Shown here: piece after piece, positions 1,310-49,463 of the stretch
How positions within the stretch are numbered: position 1 is the first letter of the stretch
Layout of the letters: the number at the start of each line of letters is the position of its first letter
Origin: Paludibacteraceae bacterium
Lineage (GTDB): Bacteria > Bacteroidota > Bacteroidia > Bacteroidales > Paludibacteraceae
Assembly (NCBI GenBank): GCA_017464475.1
Contig: JAFTZQ010000005.1
Coordinates: forward strand, 186,001 to 250,000
DNA: 64,000 nucleotides
Direction: 5' to 3'
Program-made: the position numbers and the translations under genes
Notes under the pieces: model-generated
Database searches by the model: none
The model's input: the letters and a program-made list of their open reading frames with translations, nothing else
Told to the model about the DNA's origin: nothing

Positions 1310-2284
1310 TTAAGAGAGAACCAGGTTAGCGAGAGCCAGAGCGGCCATCGCTTCCACGACAGGCACGGCGCGAGTGGCAACACAGGCGTCGTGCCTTCCT
1401 TTTACGCCTGCCTTGGGAGTGGAGGGAGTGGGTTTGAAGACACACCGGAAAGTGATCGGAGTACCATCTGCGATTCCTCCTGCGATGCCGCCGGAGATAT
1501 GGTTGATAGCCGAACCGGGTTGCGTCACTCCGCCGAAACCGGTTCCGTATTCGAATCCTTTGCAGGCATTGATGGACATAATAGCAAAAGCGAGTTCGGC
1601 TTGTAACTTATTGAAAATCGGTTCACCTGTGCCGGCAGGAAGCCCTTCGATGACGCATTCCACGATGCCTCCGATAGAGTCGCCGTCTTGACGGTACGCC
1701 TCGATGGTGTCTGCGAATTTGGCGGGGTCTGTCTCTGCTCCCACCTGAATGAGTTTAGCCTGTATGGAGATGCCTTTAGCCGCCAGTTGCTGTTTCGCTA
1801 TACATCCGGCTACCACTCTTGCTGCGGTCTCTCGGGCTGAGGCTCTGCCTCCTCCGCGGTAGTCACGAATACCGTATTTCTGTTCGTACGTCTTGTCGGC
1901 GTGCCCGACGCGGTACGAGTGTTTGAGAAACTCGTAGTCTTCGGGTCGCGCATCTTTGTTCCTTATGATAAAAGCAATCGGAGTGCCGAGAGTGACGCCA
2001 TCCATTACTCCGGAGAGCCATTCCACCTCATCGGGTTCACGGAAAGCTCTGGTAGATGTGCCGTAAAAAGCTTCTTCCGTTACTGTGTCGTTTACGTCTC
2101 GTTTACGTGTCGTTTCCGTGTCGTTTACGTGTCGTTTACGTGCTGCACGGCGGTCTAACTCGTAGTTGATCAGATCCAAATCAATATGCAGCCCTGCGGG
2201 AACGCCGTCCAGCACGCCGCCTATAGCCGCTCCGTGCGATTCGCCGAAGCTCGTAAATGTCCAGTTGTCTCCGAATACATTCAT
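1310..2284 (-). CDS. aroC: Chorismate synthase with internal repeat insertion
   Basis: Last shikimate-pathway step: FMNH2-dependent conversion of EPSP to chorismate in the cytoplasm. Hallmarks are TSFGESHG near the N-terminus, GHADKTY, GIRDYRGGGRASARET, SINACKGFEYGTGF and GRHDACVATRAVPVVEAMAA. At 324 residues it is shorter than the ~355-360 usual in Bacteroidales: the stretch before NHISGG and the one before GRHDACV are shortened. Conversely, the segment after LDRR is replaced by a lysine/aspartate-rich insert with an 11-residue period, encoded by five 11-bp repeats. The ATG at 2284 sits directly next to a 22-bp tandem array. The catalytic histidines are kept, so it is probably active. Confidence 0.93.
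   Translation of the reverse strand: MNVFGDNWTFTSFGESHGAAIGGVLDGVPAGLHIDLDLINYELDRRAARKRHVNDTETTRKRDVNDTVTEEAFYGTSTRAFREPDEVEWLSGVMDGVTLGTPIAFIIRNKDARPEDYEFLKHSYRVGHADKTYEQKYGIRDYRGGGRASARETAARVVAGCIAKQQLAAKGISIQAKLIQVGAETDPAKFADTIEAYRQDGDSIGGIVECVIEGLPAGTGEPIFNKLQAELAFAIMSINACKGFEYGTGFGGVTQPGSAINHISGGIAGGIADGTPITFRCVFKPTPSTPKAGVKGRHDACVATRAVPVVEAMAALALANLVLS
2085..2139 (-). repeat. 11-bp x5 tandem repeat inside aroC
   Basis: Five consecutive 11-bp units, GTGTCGTTTAC on the plus strand (GTAAACGACAC in coding sense) with single-base variants. Because 11 is not a multiple of 3, three units make one 11-residue protein period (KRHVNDTETTR then KRDVNDTVTEE). The same unit recurs at 24007-24050 behind ftsK. 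Confidence 0.95.
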
Positions 2285-21245: not shown

Positions 21246-21383
21246 ACTTAAAGCGGCTGCAAAGATACAAATTATTTTTCATATACGCAAGCGCACGCGT
21301 ACTTTATTTATAAAAATTAGTCTTTTTGTTATAAAAAATCATAATTTTTCACCTTTCACCTTTCGCCTTTCAACTTTTTTTTG

Positions 21384-21391
21384 TACCTTTG
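21384..21391 (+). promoter_or_regulatory. ftsK promoter -7 box
   Basis: TACCTTTG, 20 bp before the ATG at 21411. The upstream half is a CACCTTTC/GCCTTTC 7-bp repeat run (21350-21373) rather than the usual TTGC block. Confidence 0.6.
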
Positions 21392-21410
21392 CGTGCTAAA
21401 TTTGGATATT

Positions 21411-23951
21411 ATGCCCCGAACATCATCTAAAGTATCGAATACCTCTGCGGATCCGTCCCCTCGCGCCATCAAGGTGGAGAAACCGAACGTCTGGGAAACG
21501 GTGAAGCATTTTATGATGGCGAGAGAGACGCGAATGATCTGCGGCATCCTGCTGCTGACCTTCGCGGTAATCGCGCTCCTCGCTTATGTCAGTTACCTTT
21601 TTACCGGTCCGTTTGACCAGTCGATTCTCTCGCTCCCGAGAGCGGAGAAAATTGCTAATCGCGAAGCGATCCGCAATCTCCTTGGCTTGCCCGGAGCGGA
21701 GTTGGCGCAGTTCCTCATCGACGGCAGTTTCGGTTTTGTGTCCATCCTGCTGATCGGTATGCTCGGCGCGTACGCGCTACGCATCATGCATGTGTTGCGG
21801 GATATTCCGGCGCTGAAGATTTTCCTCTGCGGCACGTTCCTTGTCCTCTGGGGATCGGTAACACTCGGTTTCGCGCATAACATGGTGCATAAATTGGGCG
21901 TTTTCCTTTGGGGCGGAGCGTTCGGAGAAGCGTCCGCTCGATGGATGGTCAGCTACGTCAACGAGATCGGTACAGCCCTGATTCTGGCCGCGGCAATGGT
22001 TATTTTCCTGATCGTCAGCGACCGGCGTTTCATCGATAAATGCAAAGCTTTCGGCGAGTGGTGTAAAACACTCTTCAAAAAGAAAGAGAAGCCCGCTCCA
22101 ACCCCGCAAGAAGAGAAGGAAAAAACGGAGGAGGAAGTGACCATCGACATCCCGATTGACGTTGAGGAAGAGAAGAAAGACGAACCCAAAGACGAACCGA
22201 AAACAGGAGAAGTGACCTTCACAATCGAGAATGTTGACAAACCCGAAGAACCGAAAGATCCCGAAGAGCCCGACAAACCCGAAGAACCGGAAATCCCGGA
22301 ATCTCCGGAAAAACCGGAAACTCCGGATCTGGAGATAGAAGATGTCACGGAAGATGAACTGTACACCAAGGATCCCGACAAACTGCTGGAGAAACTCGGT
22401 CCGTACGACCCGCGCAAGGATCTGGAGTTCTACAAGTTCCCCAGTCTCAACCTCCTGAAAGTCTATGACAACGAATCGGCGCCGCTTATCGACGAGAACG
22501 AGCAACGCGCCAACGGAGCACGGATCGTCACCACTCTCCGCAATTATGGCATAGAAATTGATAGTATCAAAGCAACGGTCGGACCGACCGTGACGCTCTA
22601 TGAAATAGTGCCGAAAGCAGGTATACGCGTGGCGAAAGTACAGGCGCTCGAGAACGATATTATGATGAGTCTCTCCGCTACGGGAATCCGTATCATCGCC
22701 CCGATGCCCGGCAAGGGAACAATCGGTATAGAAGTCCCGAACGAGAAACCGCAGACCGTCTCGATGCACTCCGTCATCGCCTCCAAGCGTTTCCAAGAGG
22801 AAACGAAAATGCGGCTACCGATCGCTTATGGACGAACGATCACCAACGAGGTCTTTATGTTTGACCTCGCCAAAACGCCGCACTTGCTCGTCGCGGGTGC
22901 TACCGGAACAGGTAAATCGGTTGCCATCAACGCCATCATCACTTCGCTTCTCTATAAGAAGCACCCGGCGGAGCTCAAACTCGTCATGGTGGACCCGAAA
23001 ATGGTGGAGTTCGCGCCCTACAAGCCGCTCATCAAGCATTTCCTCGCGGCTATGCCGGACACCGATCCGGACCAGATCGTCATTACCGACTGCGACAAGG
23101 TCGTCAACACCCTCAACTCCTTGGTAATCGAGATGGAGAACCGGTACAAACTGTTGATGGATGCCGGCGTGCGCAACTTGGAGGATTACAACGATAAGTT
23201 CGTCCGCAGAAGACTGAATCCCAATAAGTTAGTGGCTGATAGTCTCCACCACCAGTACCTGCCATATATCGTCATCATCATCGATGAGTACGGCGATTTT
23301 ATCATGCAGGCGGGCAAACAGGTCGAGACGCCGATCGCACGTATCACCCAGAAAGCGCGTGCCGTCGGTATGCACATGATACTCGCTACCCAGCGTCCGT
23401 CCGTCAACATCGTCACCGGTGTCATCAAAGCGAACATTCCGACGCGTATAGCTCTGCGCACGCAATCGGTCATCGACTCGCGAACCGTGCTCGATGCGAA
23501 AGGAGCCGAACAGCTTATCGGACGCGGAGACTCGCTCTATGCCGGAAACGCATCCGTCACACGTATCCAGTGCGCCTTTGTGGACACGCCCGAAGTGGAC
23601 GAAATCGTCAAACATATATCCAAGCAACAGCGCTACACAGAACCGTATCAGTTGCCGGAATATGTGGGCGAAGGAGGCGAAGGAGAAGCGCTCGCACCGG
23701 GATCCGTGGATATGAAACGCCTGGATCCGATGTTCGCAGACGTGGCGCGATACGTGGTTGCTAAACAGGAAGGTTCTACCAGCCGCCTGCAACGTGCTTT
23801 CGAGATCGGTTATAACCGCGCAGGAAAACTCTCCGACCAACTCGAAGCTGCAGGCATCGTCGGACCGAACAAAGGACCAAAGGGACGCGATGTCCTCATC
23901 CAAGACATGGATGCCCTCGAGAAACTGCTGGAAGAACTGGGCGTCAAGTAG
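21411..23951 (+). CDS. ftsK: DNA translocase FtsK
   Basis: An 846-residue septal DNA pump that moves chromosome termini and activates Xer recombination. Four N-terminal membrane helices (to residue ~205), then a 110-residue linker of charged KPEEPKDPEEP repeats, the alpha/beta motor (Walker A GATGTGKS, IDEYGDF as Walker B, ATQRPSVNIVTG) and a C-terminal winged-helix gamma domain (LQRAFEIGYNRAGKLSDQLE) that reads polar sequences. The frame stays open to 21381, but that lies upstream of the predicted transcript start, so MPRTSSK at 21411 is the start. Confidence 0.96.
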   Translation: MPRTSSKVSNTSADPSPRAIKVEKPNVWETVKHFMMARETRMICGILLLTFAVIALLAYVSYLFTGPFDQSILSLPRAEKIANREAIRNLLGLPGAELAQFLIDGSFGFVSILLIGMLGAYALRIMHVLRDIPALKIFLCGTFLVLWGSVTLGFAHNMVHKLGVFLWGGAFGEASARWMVSYVNEIGTALILAAAMVIFLIVSDRRFIDKCKAFGEWCKTLFKKKEKPAPTPQEEKEKTEEEVTIDIPIDVEEEKKDEPKDEPKTGEVTFTIENVDKPEEPKDPEEPDKPEEPEIPESPEKPETPDLEIEDVTEDELYTKDPDKLLEKLGPYDPRKDLEFYKFPSLNLLKVYDNESAPLIDENEQRANGARIVTTLRNYGIEIDSIKATVGPTVTLYEIVPKAGIRVAKVQALENDIMMSLSATGIRIIAPMPGKGTIGIEVPNEKPQTVSMHSVIASKRFQEETKMRLPIAYGRTITNEVFMFDLAKTPHLLVAGATGTGKSVAINAIITSLLYKKHPAELKLVMVDPKMVEFAPYKPLIKHFLAAMPDTDPDQIVITDCDKVVNTLNSLVIEMENRYKLLMDAGVRNLEDYNDKFVRRRLNPNKLVADSLHHQYLPYIVIIIDEYGDFIMQAGKQVETPIARITQKARAVGMHMILATQRPSVNIVTGVIKANIPTRIALRTQSVIDSRTVLDAKGAEQLIGRGDSLYAGNASVTRIQCAFVDTPEVDEIVKHISKQQRYTEPYQLPEYVGEGGEGEALAPGSVDMKRLDPMFADVARYVVAKQEGSTSRLQRAFEIGYNRAGKLSDQLEAAGIVGPNKGPKGRDVLIQDMDALEKLLEELGVK

Positions 23952-24105
23952 CCGCAAAATAGCAAATAACCTGCCAAAAAAATGCAGTAAACCTGCTGTC
24001 AAACACGTAAACGAGACGTAAACGAGACGTAAACGACACGTAATCGGAAGCCGACGACGTCGGGAGAACAACGGGAGAATAACGGCAGAACAATAGGAAA
24101 AATAA
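23952..24105. repeat. 11-bp array filling the ftsK-lolA spacer
   Basis: The spacer from the ftsK stop to six bases before the next ATG is 154 bp, 14 x 11. The middle is unmistakable: GTAAACGAGAC x2, GTAAACGACAC, GTAATCGGAAG (24007-24050), one unrelated unit, then GGGAGAACAAC, GGGAGAATAAC, GGCAGAACAAT (24062-24094). The first five units are only loosely alike. The first block matches the repeat inside aroC. Confidence 0.85.
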
Positions 24106-24111
24106 AGCAAC

Positions 24112-24681
24112 ATGCAACATTTATTAATGATATTAACCATCCTTTCGTCCTTTTTGACGAATTTGGAGGAGAAGACGCTGCAGTCGGCGTTCACGGTCAC
24201 GGTAGCGGAAGAGGTAAACGCGCCGATGAATTTCCCCGGCGAAATCATTATGCACGGACGAAACTTTCGTCTGGAGATGATGGATATAGAGGCGGCGTAC
24301 GACGGCAAAACGATGTACATGTACTCCGGCGAGACCGACGAACTGACGCTCTCCAACCCGACCGACCAAGAACTCCTGGAGGCGAACCCGTTCCTCTACG
24401 CCAAAGCGCTTATACCGGTTTGTAACATCACAGAACGCGCTTCTGCGGATGGAAAAGAGACCATCGTCACCCTGACGCCCAAGGATCAGTCCATCGGCAT
24501 CAACCGCTTCACCCTCCGCGTGCGAAACAGCGACCTGATGCCACTGTCGGCGGAAATCAAAGAGGGAAAGAAGATTTCAACCCTGAAGATGAAAGAGCCG
24601 AAGTTTGTCGCAACAACACCCGAGGAGATCTTTGTATTGAAACCAAGCAAAAATACGTTTGTGAACGATATGCGCTTCTAA
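24112..24681 (+). CDS. LolA-like outer-membrane lipoprotein carrier family protein
   Basis: A 189-residue exported protein with a weak signal (MQHLLMILTILSSFLTN) and the LolA pattern: LQSAFTVTVAEE, GEIIMHGRNFRLEM, AYDGKTMYMYSGETDELTL, then VTLTPKD and FTLRVRN. LolA carries lipoproteins through the periplasm. The Bacteroidetes forms are divergent, so the function is by fold family. The final TAA is the start of an 8-bp array leading into trxB. Confidence 0.8.
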   Translation: MQHLLMILTILSSFLTNLEEKTLQSAFTVTVAEEVNAPMNFPGEIIMHGRNFRLEMMDIEAAYDGKTMYMYSGETDELTLSNPTDQELLEANPFLYAKALIPVCNITERASADGKETIVTLTPKDQSIGINRFTLRVRNSDLMPLSAEIKEGKKISTLKMKEPKFVATTPEEIFVLKPSKNTFVNDMRF

Positions 24682-24727
24682 ATGAGAAAATAAGAAAATG
24701 AGAAAATGAGAAAATAAGAAAATGAAT
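24680..24727 (+). repeat. 8-bp x6 repeat between lolA-like gene and trxB
   Basis: AAATGAGA, AAATAAGA, AAATGAGA, AAATGAGA, AAATAAGA, AAATGAAT: six in-register units from inside the stop codon to inside the trxB start codon. The related unit AAATGTGA appears inside trxB at 25574-25613. Confidence 0.95.
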
Positions 24728-25735
24728 GAACAAATGGTAAATAAAGTAAGATGTTTGATAATCGGTTCCGGACCTGCCGGCTACACGGCTGCCATCTATG
24801 CCAGCCGTGCGAACCTGCAACCGGTACTCATTGAAGGTCCGCAACTCGGCGGGCAGTTGACCACGACCACGGAAGTAGAGAATTTCCCCGGCTACCCGGA
24901 CGGAGTAGAACCGTTCCAGATGATGGACGATATGCGCCGTCAAGCCGAGCGCTTCGGCACAACTTTCGTCTCCGGTGTGGTAACCAAAGTAAACTTTCAA
25001 ACAACCTCGAACACGGGCGAAGCCCGCAAACCTCATCAAGTCTGGGTAGAAGACACAGACTTGTACGAAGCAGACGCAGTCATCATCGCTACAGGTGCGA
25101 GTGCCAAATACTTGGGCATCGAGTCCGAGCGCACCTACAAAGGACGCGGCGTGTCTGCCTGCGCTACCTGTGACGGCTTCTTCTATCGCAAGAAAACCGT
25201 AGCAGTAGTCGGCGGCGGAGACACAGCCTGCGAAGAAGCAAACTATCTGGCTGGACTGTGCGAAAAAGTCTATATGATTGTTCGCAAACCCTTCCTCCGC
25301 GCATCGGAAATCATGCAGCAGCGTGTCCTGAACAACCCCAAGATCGAAGTCCTCTTTGAGCACAACACGCTCCAACTGACCGGCGAAGGAAAAGTGCAGG
25401 GAGCGGACCTGATCTACCGCAAAGGCGAACCGGACGAAGAAATCCGCCATATAGCGATTGACGGTTTCTTCCTCGCTATCGGACACCATCCCAACACCGA
25501 CCTCTTCAAGGACTACGTAGCCCGCGACCCGGAGGGATATATTATCACCAATGGAGCCTCAACGCAGTGCTTCAAATGTGAAAATGCGCAAATGGGTAAA
25601 TGTGAAAATGAAAAATTGCCCGGCATCTTTGCCGCAGGAGACTGCGCAGACCCGCACTACCGTCAGGCGATCGTAGCCGCAGGCAGCGGCGCTAAAGCAG
25701 CGATCGAAGCAGATAAATATATCAAGAGTTTGTAA
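24722..25735 (+). CDS. trxB: Thioredoxin reductase with internal 8-bp repeat
   Basis: A 337-residue FAD/NADPH flavoprotein that reduces thioredoxin. FAD site IGSGPAGYTAAIYASRA, redox-active CATC in VSACATCDGFF, NADPH site VGGGDTACEEA, and the closing GIFAAGDCADPHYRQ. Between NGASTQ and LPGIFAAGD, where homologues have a short turn, sit about 16 extra residues (CFKCENAQMGKCENEK) encoded by five 8-bp units. These add two cysteines on an exposed loop. Start ATG lies in the upstream 8-bp array. DUF456 overlaps the stop by one base. Confidence 0.95.
   Translation: MNEQMVNKVRCLIIGSGPAGYTAAIYASRANLQPVLIEGPQLGGQLTTTTEVENFPGYPDGVEPFQMMDDMRRQAERFGTTFVSGVVTKVNFQTTSNTGEARKPHQVWVEDTDLYEADAVIIATGASAKYLGIESERTYKGRGVSACATCDGFFYRKKTVAVVGGGDTACEEANYLAGLCEKVYMIVRKPFLRASEIMQQRVLNNPKIEVLFEHNTLQLTGEGKVQGADLIYRKGEPDEEIRHIAIDGFFLAIGHHPNTDLFKDYVARDPEGYIITNGASTQCFKCENAQMGKCENEKLPGIFAAGDCADPHYRQAIVAAGSGAKAAIEADKYIKSL
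25574..25613 (+). repeat. 8-bp x5 repeat inside trxB
   Basis: Units AAATGTGA, AAATGCGC, AAATGGGT, AAATGTGA, AAATGAAA, in frame, before the conserved GIFAAGD strand. Similar in unit and length to the array at the gene's own 5' end. Confidence 0.92.
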
Positions 25736-33560: not shown

Positions 33561-33637
33561 ATAACCTAGGTATAACCTAGGTATCACCTAGGTATCACCT
33601 AGGGTTGACCCGATCTTGATAGTATCTTAATAGTATA
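33561..33637. repeat. 11-bp x7 array between glmM and lpxB
   Basis: ATAACCTAGGT x2, ATCACCTAGGT, ATCACCTAGGG, then TTGACCCGATC, TTGATAGTATC, TTAATAGTATA: seven 11-bp units ending at the base before the glmM stop codon. The first 49 bp differ from 44531-44579 at one base. Confidence 0.95.
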
Positions 33638-44464: not shown

Positions 44465-44585
44465 CAAGGGTGTTGCGAGGGTATTGTTGTGCCGTTTCGA
44501 TTGGCTTATCGTTATACTTGTATAGGCTGAATAACCTAGGTATAACCTAGGTATAACCTAGGTATCACCTAGGGTTGACAGCAAG
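44465..44585. repeat. 11-bp array downstream of trmO
   Basis: Part of the 343-bp gap after trmO. ATAACCTAGGT x3 and ATCACCTAGGG (44531-44574) are exact; CAAGGGTGTTG/CGAGGGTATTG (44465-44486) also pair up in register, and units between are weak. The 49 bp from 44531 match the lpxB-glmM array except one base. Confidence 0.85.
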
Positions 44586-44597
44586 GAGAGAGGAAAA

Positions 44598-44646
44598 GTG
44601 AAAGGTGAAAGGTGAAAAGTGAAAGGTGAAAAGTGAAAGGTGAAAG
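44598..44646. repeat. 7-bp x7 repeat upstream of amylase
   Basis: Seven units GTGAAAG/GTGAAAA in perfect 7-bp register. The same unit fills the spacer at 49429-49463. Then a purine-rich stretch with ATAGAAAA repeats leads to the promoter. Confidence 0.95.
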
Positions 44647-44713
44647 GAAGAAGGAAGGATGGAAGAGAAAAACATAGAAAAATATAGAAAATATGGAAAA
44701 AACGCGCGCGCAC

Positions 44714-48560: not shown

Positions 48561-49427
48561 ATGAAAAAGATTTTTATGTTGATGGCTGCGCTGGTATGTG
48601 CAGCAGGGATTTTTGCCCAGAGTTATGGGGTATTGGTGAACGGAAAAGTTTATTATCCGGGAACGAAAGTAGATGAGTTTGAGGGATTTCAGCAGTATCT
48701 GGCGCATGTGCAGGTAGCCTCCGGCGACCAGTTGCAACTCTGCGACGCAGAGAACCGTGCGGTATGGGTGGTGGATCTGAATCCTGCTTCGGTAGCAGGT
48801 ATTACTCGCGAAGGAGATATCTACAAAGCTACCGTCAGCGGATGCTATGATTTCTACATCAAGCTCAAATATCAGGCAGACGAACTCTATATCGGTGCCG
48901 GAACGGACTGCGGCGAAGGTATTGATATCAGTGGTTTGGACGATGTGGATGAGGACGATGTGAACTACTATGCCATCGGTTGGATCAACGGAGCAGACAA
49001 CGGCGAGGCGGCATATGATCAGTATGACGACAATCTGCTGTTTGTCGATGGTAAGTTGACCATTGATTGCCAGATGGGTAGTTATATTGCCATTAAGGAT
49101 CATAAGGGCAATTTCTATTATTCCAAAGCAGCAACCACGATCGAGAATAGTTCTGTGACGATGGACTGGGCTAACGGTTGGTCCGGTTGTGAGAAATGGG
49201 CTATTCCTGAGGGTGTGAACTATATCATCATCCGCAGCGCGAAGTTCAAAGGTCAGATCCAGCTGGAGCGCGTGGATAAAGCGACATACGACGCTTATCA
49301 CTATAGCGGCAACCAAGCGATTGAGAACACCGAGGTGAGCGAGAAAGCGCACAAGGTGATCATTGACGGTCAGTTGCGTATCGTTCGCGGCGAGCGTGTC
49401 TTTGACGCTACAGGACGCGAGTTGTAA
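48561..49427 (+). CDS. Secreted non-catalytic binding protein, duplicate of amylase module
   Basis: A 288-residue exported protein (signal MKKIFMLMAALVCAAGIFAQ). Residues ~21-115 repeat the N-terminal module of the preceding amylase almost motif for motif (SYGVLVNGKVYY, LAHVQVASGDQLQLCDAE, SGCYDFYIKLKYQADELYIG). Residues ~125-245 form a second beta-rich domain (YYAIGWINGADNGE, GSYIAIKDHKGNFYY, GVNYIIIRSAKFKG) like SusE/F-type starch-binding domains. Ends in the tail IIDGQLRIVRGERVFDATG. Probably binds alpha-glucan at the surface; ligand inferred from neighbours. Confidence 0.7.
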   Translation: MKKIFMLMAALVCAAGIFAQSYGVLVNGKVYYPGTKVDEFEGFQQYLAHVQVASGDQLQLCDAENRAVWVVDLNPASVAGITREGDIYKATVSGCYDFYIKLKYQADELYIGAGTDCGEGIDISGLDDVDEDDVNYYAIGWINGADNGEAAYDQYDDNLLFVDGKLTIDCQMGSYIAIKDHKGNFYYSKAATTIENSSVTMDWANGWSGCEKWAIPEGVNYIIIRSAKFKGQIQLERVDKATYDAYHYSGNQAIENTEVSEKAHKVIIDGQLRIVRGERVFDATGREL

Positions 49428-49428
49428 G

Positions 49429-49463
49429 GTGAAAGGTGAAAATTGAAAGGTGAAAGGTGAAAG
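49429..49463 (+). repeat. 7-bp x5 spacer between binding protein and GH13 gene
   Basis: GTGAAAG, GTGAAAA, TTGAAAG, GTGAAAG, GTGAAAG: five units from two bases after the stop to the base before the next ATG. Same unit as 44598-44646. Confidence 0.95.

Follow-up and report, generated by a model that had tools for sequence, protein, structure and literature searches.

An 11-bp tandem repeat inside the chorismate synthase gene (aroC) of a rumen Paludibacteraceae genome is probably one copy of a dispersed minisatellite that is restricted to the genus, copied in blocks and homogenized within each genome. The unit consists of the core AACGASAC and three variable bases (NNNAACGASAC). It is dispersed over many sites, lies in ordered blocks, is spelled in a genome-specific way and occurs in coding sequence as stop-free copies. 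Taken together, these features suggest that the repeat itself was copied and has been kept alike across each genome.

The 11-bp unit in aroC and in an intergenic spacer

The window (the whole 64,000-nucleotide stretch that was analyzed) contains the repeat in two places, one coding and one non-coding (Table 1). The aroC ORF encodes 324 amino acids and matches the chorismate synthase family (Pfam PF01264) with an E value of 3.3e-96. The original prediction of five GTAAACGASAC-type units in the AroC frame is confirmed; read along the minus strand from 2139 to 2085, the units are GTAAACGACAC, GTAAACGACAC, GGAAACGACAC, GTAAACGAGAC and GTAAACGACAC. The in-frame TAA is absent from the third unit because GGAAACGACAC has a T-to-G difference, and the insert has a period of 11 residues because three 11-nucleotide units make 11 codons. 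The insert is presumably translated, as its frame is open and homology is found on either side. Its predicted place after the LDRR motif is borne out by the ORF and by two PDB chorismate synthases (among the matches listed) that lack it and run from LDRR directly into the next conserved block. A 22-bp tandem repeat (2.9 copies) also lies at 2287-2350 of the window, immediately upstream of the aroC start codon.

The same unit had been predicted in non-coding DNA between ftsK and lolA, and three units are indeed present there: two copies of GTAAACGAGAC followed by one of GTAAACGACAC, between the ORFs at 21381-23951 and 24112-24681 (ftsK and lolA are putative names carried over from that prediction). 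The window as a whole contains 8 unit matches with ≤1 mismatch, compared with a mean of 1.89 and a maximum of 5 in 100 shuffles. These shuffles, together with zero matches genome-wide for a reversed control, rule out a chance origin of the repeat.

Table 1. Positions, within the window, of the repeat units and of the features that carry or flank them
Feature	Position	Strand	Evidence
aroC, with an in-frame repeat-derived insert after LDRR	1310..2284	-	ORF; Pfam; PDB comparison
Five 11-bp units on the aroC sense strand, read as RKRHVNDTETTRKRDVNDT	2085..2139	-	
Stop-free unit GGAAACGACAC, in the codon phase where GTAA gives an in-frame TAA	2107..2117	-	
Block start CAAACAC, likewise ahead of several other arrays of the genome	24000..24006	+	
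Three 11-bp units in the ftsK-lolA spacer	24007..24039	+	
Block tail GTAATCGGAAGCCGACGACGTCGGGAGAA	24040..24068	+	5 genome copies (≤3 mismatches), each immediately after an array

Arrays occur across the genome as ordered blocks

The genome (G000) is a metagenome-assembled genome of 1.90 Mb in 36 contigs, with 71% completeness. A whole-genome search for GTAAACGASAC arrays, as the original prediction proposed, was made with the unit pair at ≤3 mismatches; it gave 19 overlapping matches that correspond to 7 arrays, while the reversed control gave 0. Of these, two lie in coding sequence (aroC, and valS on contig 14) and five in non-coding DNA. These seven sites, five of them non-coding, and the presence of the unit in several unrelated genes of the genus support the claim that the repeat rather than the protein was copied. 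The recurring element is not the loose unit that had been supposed but an ordered block, in which the first and last units are special. The tail GTAATCGGAAGCCGACGACGTCGGGAGAA stands directly behind 5 of the 5 non-coding arrays of G000 (≤2 mismatches), and a CAAACAC-like stretch precedes most of them. Other genomes have their own order: arrays of G104 mostly start with GTAAAAAAGAC, the first unit is NNNTACGAGAY in 15/15 arrays of G028, and all ggc units precede the gat units in 9 of the 10 G177 arrays that contain both. Arrays of G028 and of G177 also have common flank motifs, as judged by eye.

Several further repeats and likenesses were seen. Conserved flanks surround the G028 arrays (L416-L430), with CATTTTTCTTT upstream in many and TTTCATTTTGTCAAA downstream. 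The array at contig 13:3105 of G000 resembles, by eye, a shortened duplicate of the contig 8 array region behind a sugar-transferase-like ORF, and the likeness, also by eye, keeps parts of the flanks (L023, ~2106-2149; L021, ~2496-2528). A second 11-bp family in G000 has ATAACCTAGGT units ahead of ATCACCTAGGT at each of 6 sites, with no match for the reversed control; its two sites in the window, 33561-33603 and 44531-44573, both end in ATCACCTAGGG. An 8-bp unit, AAATGAGA / AAATGTGA, forms another spacer/coding pair in the window, occurring in the spacer at 24680-24725 before the ORF at 24722-25735 and again within that ORF (25574-25610). The heptamer GAAAGGT is repeated at 44593-44647 and at 49422-49463, 5 kb apart.

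One alternative is local slippage, by which every array would have grown at its own site from a short seed, with selection favoring hydrophilic, stop-poor 11-mers. The differing unit numbers between sites and the many unrelated short tandem repeats in the window and in AroC loops are what slippage would produce. However, seven arrays of one unit in a single genome against none for the reversed control, a common 29-bp tail behind five non-coding arrays, ordered unit variants common to different sites and the constant order of the second family at its 6 sites are poorly compatible with this explanation, which we regard as very improbable.

In the samples searched, the repeat occurs in one genus

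In the genus, a GTA-type unit pair (≤2 mismatches) is present in 51 of 178 genomes, including G000, and three AACGASAC cores at 11-bp spacing (≤2 mismatches) are present in 79 of 178, against 3 genomes for the reversed control. A sample of 393 genomes from across the order gave unit-pair matches only in G000 and one other genome. Outside the genus there is a single 2-mismatch match in 1 of 390 genomes, compared with one reversed-control match in each of 3 genomes, and the non-genus signal is therefore at background level; presence across the order can be discarded. Virus carriage was likewise rejected, as none of the viral contigs searched has an exact unit pair. In the samples searched, the repeat is limited to the genus, and among named genomes the closest are metagenome-assembled genomes of uncultured rumen Bacteroidales/Paludibacteraceae. 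We found no description of this repeat in Paludibacteraceae in the open PMC literature, which does not imply its absence from print.

Unit spelling is shared more within genomes than within sites

For 40 arrays of 21 genomes, drawn from among the matches listed of a GTA-centered pattern search, we compared unit type (positions 2-3, with stop-prone coding units excluded). Unit types agree at 0.88 for different sites in the same genome (43 pairs) versus 0.36 for the same site in different genomes (31 pairs). When genome labels were shuffled, the within-genome mean was 0.43 and 0.88 was reached in 0 of 5000 shuffles (p 0.0002). This comparison excludes G104, G140, G193 and G034, whose arrays come from a GTA-only search, and G153 and G163, which are near-copies of G000. 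With all 84 arrays, the likeness is 0.96 within genomes and 0.42 within sites. In the sample examined, unit spelling thus tends to track the genome rather than the orthologous site, as in concerted evolution.

The arrays of a genome are not always homogeneous. G090 and G170 have mixed units, and valS of G034 carries another 11-mer, GGCAAAAACAC, instead of GTA units. The orthologous gdhA spacer, compared at 26 of 30 loci, has GTA arrays in G000, G034 and G029, GAA units in G148, a mix in G170 and a different 11-mer in G077; in G071, G182 and G121 the genes abut. At five loci (L324, L328, L329, L330 and L336), the spacer behind gdhA contains ~40-bp direct copies of the gene's own 3' end.

Coding copies are free of stops and share their spelling between genes

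We examined 22 coding and 62 non-coding arrays. Coding arrays are in valS (9), aroC (5), an RNB-domain exonuclease gene (4), an ORF with EPSP-synthase and glycosyltransferase domains (2), mreC (1) and a class I tRNA synthetase gene resembling ileS (1); the Pfam check covers 10 of the ORFs that bear coding arrays, and the names rnr, aroA and ileS were given by eye. Tandem GTAAACGASAC has a TAA in all forward frames. In the stop-prone codon phase, GTA occurs in 0 of 21 arrays, whereas in the other phases it accounts for 38 of 60 units (Fisher 8e-8); the frame was placed for 21 of the 22 coding arrays, L246 having two open sense frames.

A working gene would be purged of stops in any case, and the shared spelling is more telling. 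The stop-free spelling GGA is found in aroC, valS and the RNB gene of G000, G034, G153 and G163, which together have 9 coding GGA units and 0 GGA among 42 non-coding units. The spelling GTT is found in the EPSP/glycosyltransferase ORF and valS of G027 and in mreC of G007. The same site in valS therefore has GGA in one genome group and GTT in another, putative group, each common to other genes of that group, which is the pattern expected if a stop-free version were copied from one gene to another. Exceptions are one non-coding array of G127 and the aroC array of G099, which also have GGA units. The latter array (L305) is a hybrid, with GTA and GGA units followed by two GAA units like those of the genome's other array, and may be a conversion edge.

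Under the reading that we prefer, whole blocks would be copied to new sites, and recombination or gene conversion among the arrays of a genome would homogenize the existing ones. Copies landing in tolerant surface loops would persist only as stop-free versions, which could then act as donors for further genes. Both this copying mechanism and any function of the arrays are inferred. A more elaborate version, which we put forward tentatively and at less than even odds, is a self-spreading array in two editions, a stop-rich one in spacers and a stop-free one copied from gene to gene, with genome-wide conversion homogenizing both; the coding editions would be GGA for aroC, valS and the RNB gene, and GTT for valS, the EPSP/glycosyltransferase ORF and mreC.

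AroC and ValS loops collect many repeat families

Across AroC of 80 relatives (80 loci, with the loop parsed in all but some of the rows), two loops, one after LDRR and one before TLGTP, range from no insert to long repeat-like inserts. Among loop inserts of ≥24 bp, 36 of 72 match non-aroC DNA of the genus (E<1e-3), compared with 4 of 72 pieces of the aroC core of the same length; without the four 11-mer loops the values are 32/68 and 4/68. The database for these matches consists of 118 sequences (449 kb) gathered around 11-mer arrays, and the matches cross genomes of the genus, not necessarily lying within one genome. Supported sister rows in the AroC tree differ by entire inserts (e.g., L125/L150 and L128/L163). 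In the ValS linker, by our own reading of 27 of 30 loci, AACGASAC-core arrays are present at 9 loci, a palindrome of the CCCTCTCC type at 4, repeats of the ACTAACGAGAC type at 5 and repeats of the CTAGGC type at 2. The AroC and ValS loops are hot-spots for many repeat families.

The particular insert of the window's AroC is not a young feature of this genome alone, being shared with the near-identical genomes RUG11067 and RUG13776 (98% and 97% AroC identity) and with the more distant G034, while the homologue comparison finds other relatives with no insert or with a different repeat in that loop. Sharing of the insert by close relatives was one half of the outcome named as counting against a copied repeat, and it is observed; the other half, a unit with no other genomic copies, is contradicted by the seven arrays. 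In the AroC tree, which includes 62 of 81 rows (L190 of G099 left out) and has a weak backbone, G034 stands apart from the window's group, and the insert label needs two changes, with one change sufficing in 0% of bootstrap trees. The insert may have had one origin or two. Among the three nearest AroC sequences, variable columns number 1 of 55 in the array and 20 of 230 outside it, a difference that is not significant (Fisher p 0.09). Most likely, the insert is a repeat copy that the enzyme tolerates, and the loop a hydrophilic extension that is likewise tolerated and has no separate role.

Orientation of arrays and the question of regulation

Non-coding arrays are co-directional with the downstream gene in a ratio of 61:17 (p 6e-7), or 57:17 (p 3e-6) when one recurrent site is counted once. 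This tally is based on our own crude codon-score gene calls, with 7 arrays having no callable downstream gene and L238 no array by pattern, and it excludes the orthologous gdhA, fic, lolA and transferase sites of G034, G148, G029, G072, G153 and G163. In the coding set, 22 of 22 arrays are in the sense direction. Here selection on the protein could be the explanation, because the sense peptide is hydrophilic and the antisense peptide hydrophobic (by eye). In the spacers, the bias may reflect a role at the RNA or DNA level or a strand-specific copying process.

The orientation bias would be expected if the arrays were operators for a DNA- or RNA-binding regulator, bound once per helical turn, with the spelling co-evolving with the regulator and the coding copies accidental. 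In agreement with this, 8 of 12 co-directional arrays of G028 end 182-217 bp ahead of the start codon and have common flanking motifs, and arrays are kept across species in some orthologous spacers. In contrast, orientation is unbiased in G140 (5:6), and arrays lie within coding regions of at least six gene types. The downstream genes that we checked are a mix of housekeeping and other functions (phosphofructokinase, a pyruvate-type oxidoreductase, EF-P, an FAD enzyme, an M13 peptidase, a sigma-54 activator, PanB, a PPIase and a TsaD-family protein; Pfam matched 9 of 10 proteins), and we reject a dedicated regulon. A structured RNA is also rejected: three window stretches, including the block and the AroC array, fold like their shuffles (z 0.31, 0.28 and -0.14), and Rfam at the gathering threshold identifies only 6 tRNAs in the window and five array loci. 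Because the downstream genes are mixed, folding is at chance and Rfam matches are tRNAs only, we do not commit to a regulatory role, and we consider operators an unlikely explanation.

In five genomes (L202, L216, L221, L231 and L408), an array recurs at a site ahead of a small gene whose product starts with MAKA, MGKA or similar; the 114-residue protein of L202 has no match to a Pfam family.

Comparison with known dispersed repeats

Dispersed repeats as such are already known, and what is new here is the 11-bp variant. The short tandemly repeated repetitive (STRR) sequences of cyanobacteria are dispersed arrays of a heptanucleotide. Compared with the STRR sequences, the present repeat is alike in being dispersed in short-unit arrays and different in unit length and phylum.

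BrickBuilt of Porphyromonas gingivalis is reported to have 23-nucleotide units and small inverted-repeat ends and to be always intergenic (PMC4596501). Our repeat, also from the Bacteroidales, is similar in that a tandem array of short units lies between a constant leader and tail in many genome copies (tail at 5/5 sites in G000, constant first unit in 15/15 arrays of G028). It is unlike BrickBuilt in its 11-nucleotide units, in the inverted ends, which we did not find in 60-bp flanks of 66 arrays from six genomes, and in its copies within conserved genes (22 coding arrays in 6 gene types). The likeness raises the alternative of a MITE-like element with a minisatellite core, moved in trans by a transposase. 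Blocks with constant ends and variable unit number, many copies per genome and insertion into spacers agree with such an element. However, the longest inverted match in the flanks equals that in shuffled flanks (largest, 7) and no transposase is linked to an array; the one array that adjoins an IS3-like ORF (by eye) is at a contig end, and in G034, G153 and G163 the same Fic-side site has another ORF in that place. We therefore regard a MITE-like element as improbable, and continue to favor block copying with homogenization.

Direct repeats of the TAACTGA type occur in Beggiatoaceae, Cyanobacteria and some Bacteroidetes, with two sets in Paludibacter; these heptamers are reported to lie, in the main genome treated, mostly within several nucleotides of a start codon and, in ORFs, to have forward copies at gene ends only (PMC4679880). 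Both systems are short direct repeats that are mostly intergenic, mostly forward to the downstream gene (61:17 here, although 5:6 in G140) and supplied with three-frame TAA stops. The present unit, in contrast, is the 11-bp NNNAACGASAC rather than a heptamer, and its forward arrays lie in the interiors of proteins, where unit variants remove the stop.

Rickettsia palindromic elements (RPE) and the Neisseria NEMIS/Correia elements are stem-loops of 100-150 bp with terminal inverted repeats, and NEMIS has a stop-free 107-bp form in ORFs and a stop-rich 155-bp form between genes (PMC2229807). The likeness lies in copies dispersed in spacers and in frame within conserved protein genes (62 non-coding and 22 coding arrays here) and, for NEMIS, in the stop-free coding versus stop-rich intergenic forms. 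The present repeat differs in being a tandem 11-mer, and it shows no long stem-loop or palindrome in the three window stretches, where RNA structure is no greater than in shuffles.

Implications

Change in protein loops is usually ascribed to local mutation. In the present case, the loop DNA of translation, shikimate and cell-shape proteins resembles copies of an intergenic repeat, and lineage-specific spellings are common to unrelated genes. A practical caution is that repeat-derived inserts will pass for protein features in alignments and structure models. If the two-edition reading is true, the loops of unrelated housekeeping proteins would evolve in concert with intergenic DNA. If block copying with homogenization is true, these bacteria would offer a natural and experimentally open system for the entry of new protein segments into essential genes, and for the concerted evolution of coding and non-coding repeats in bacteria.
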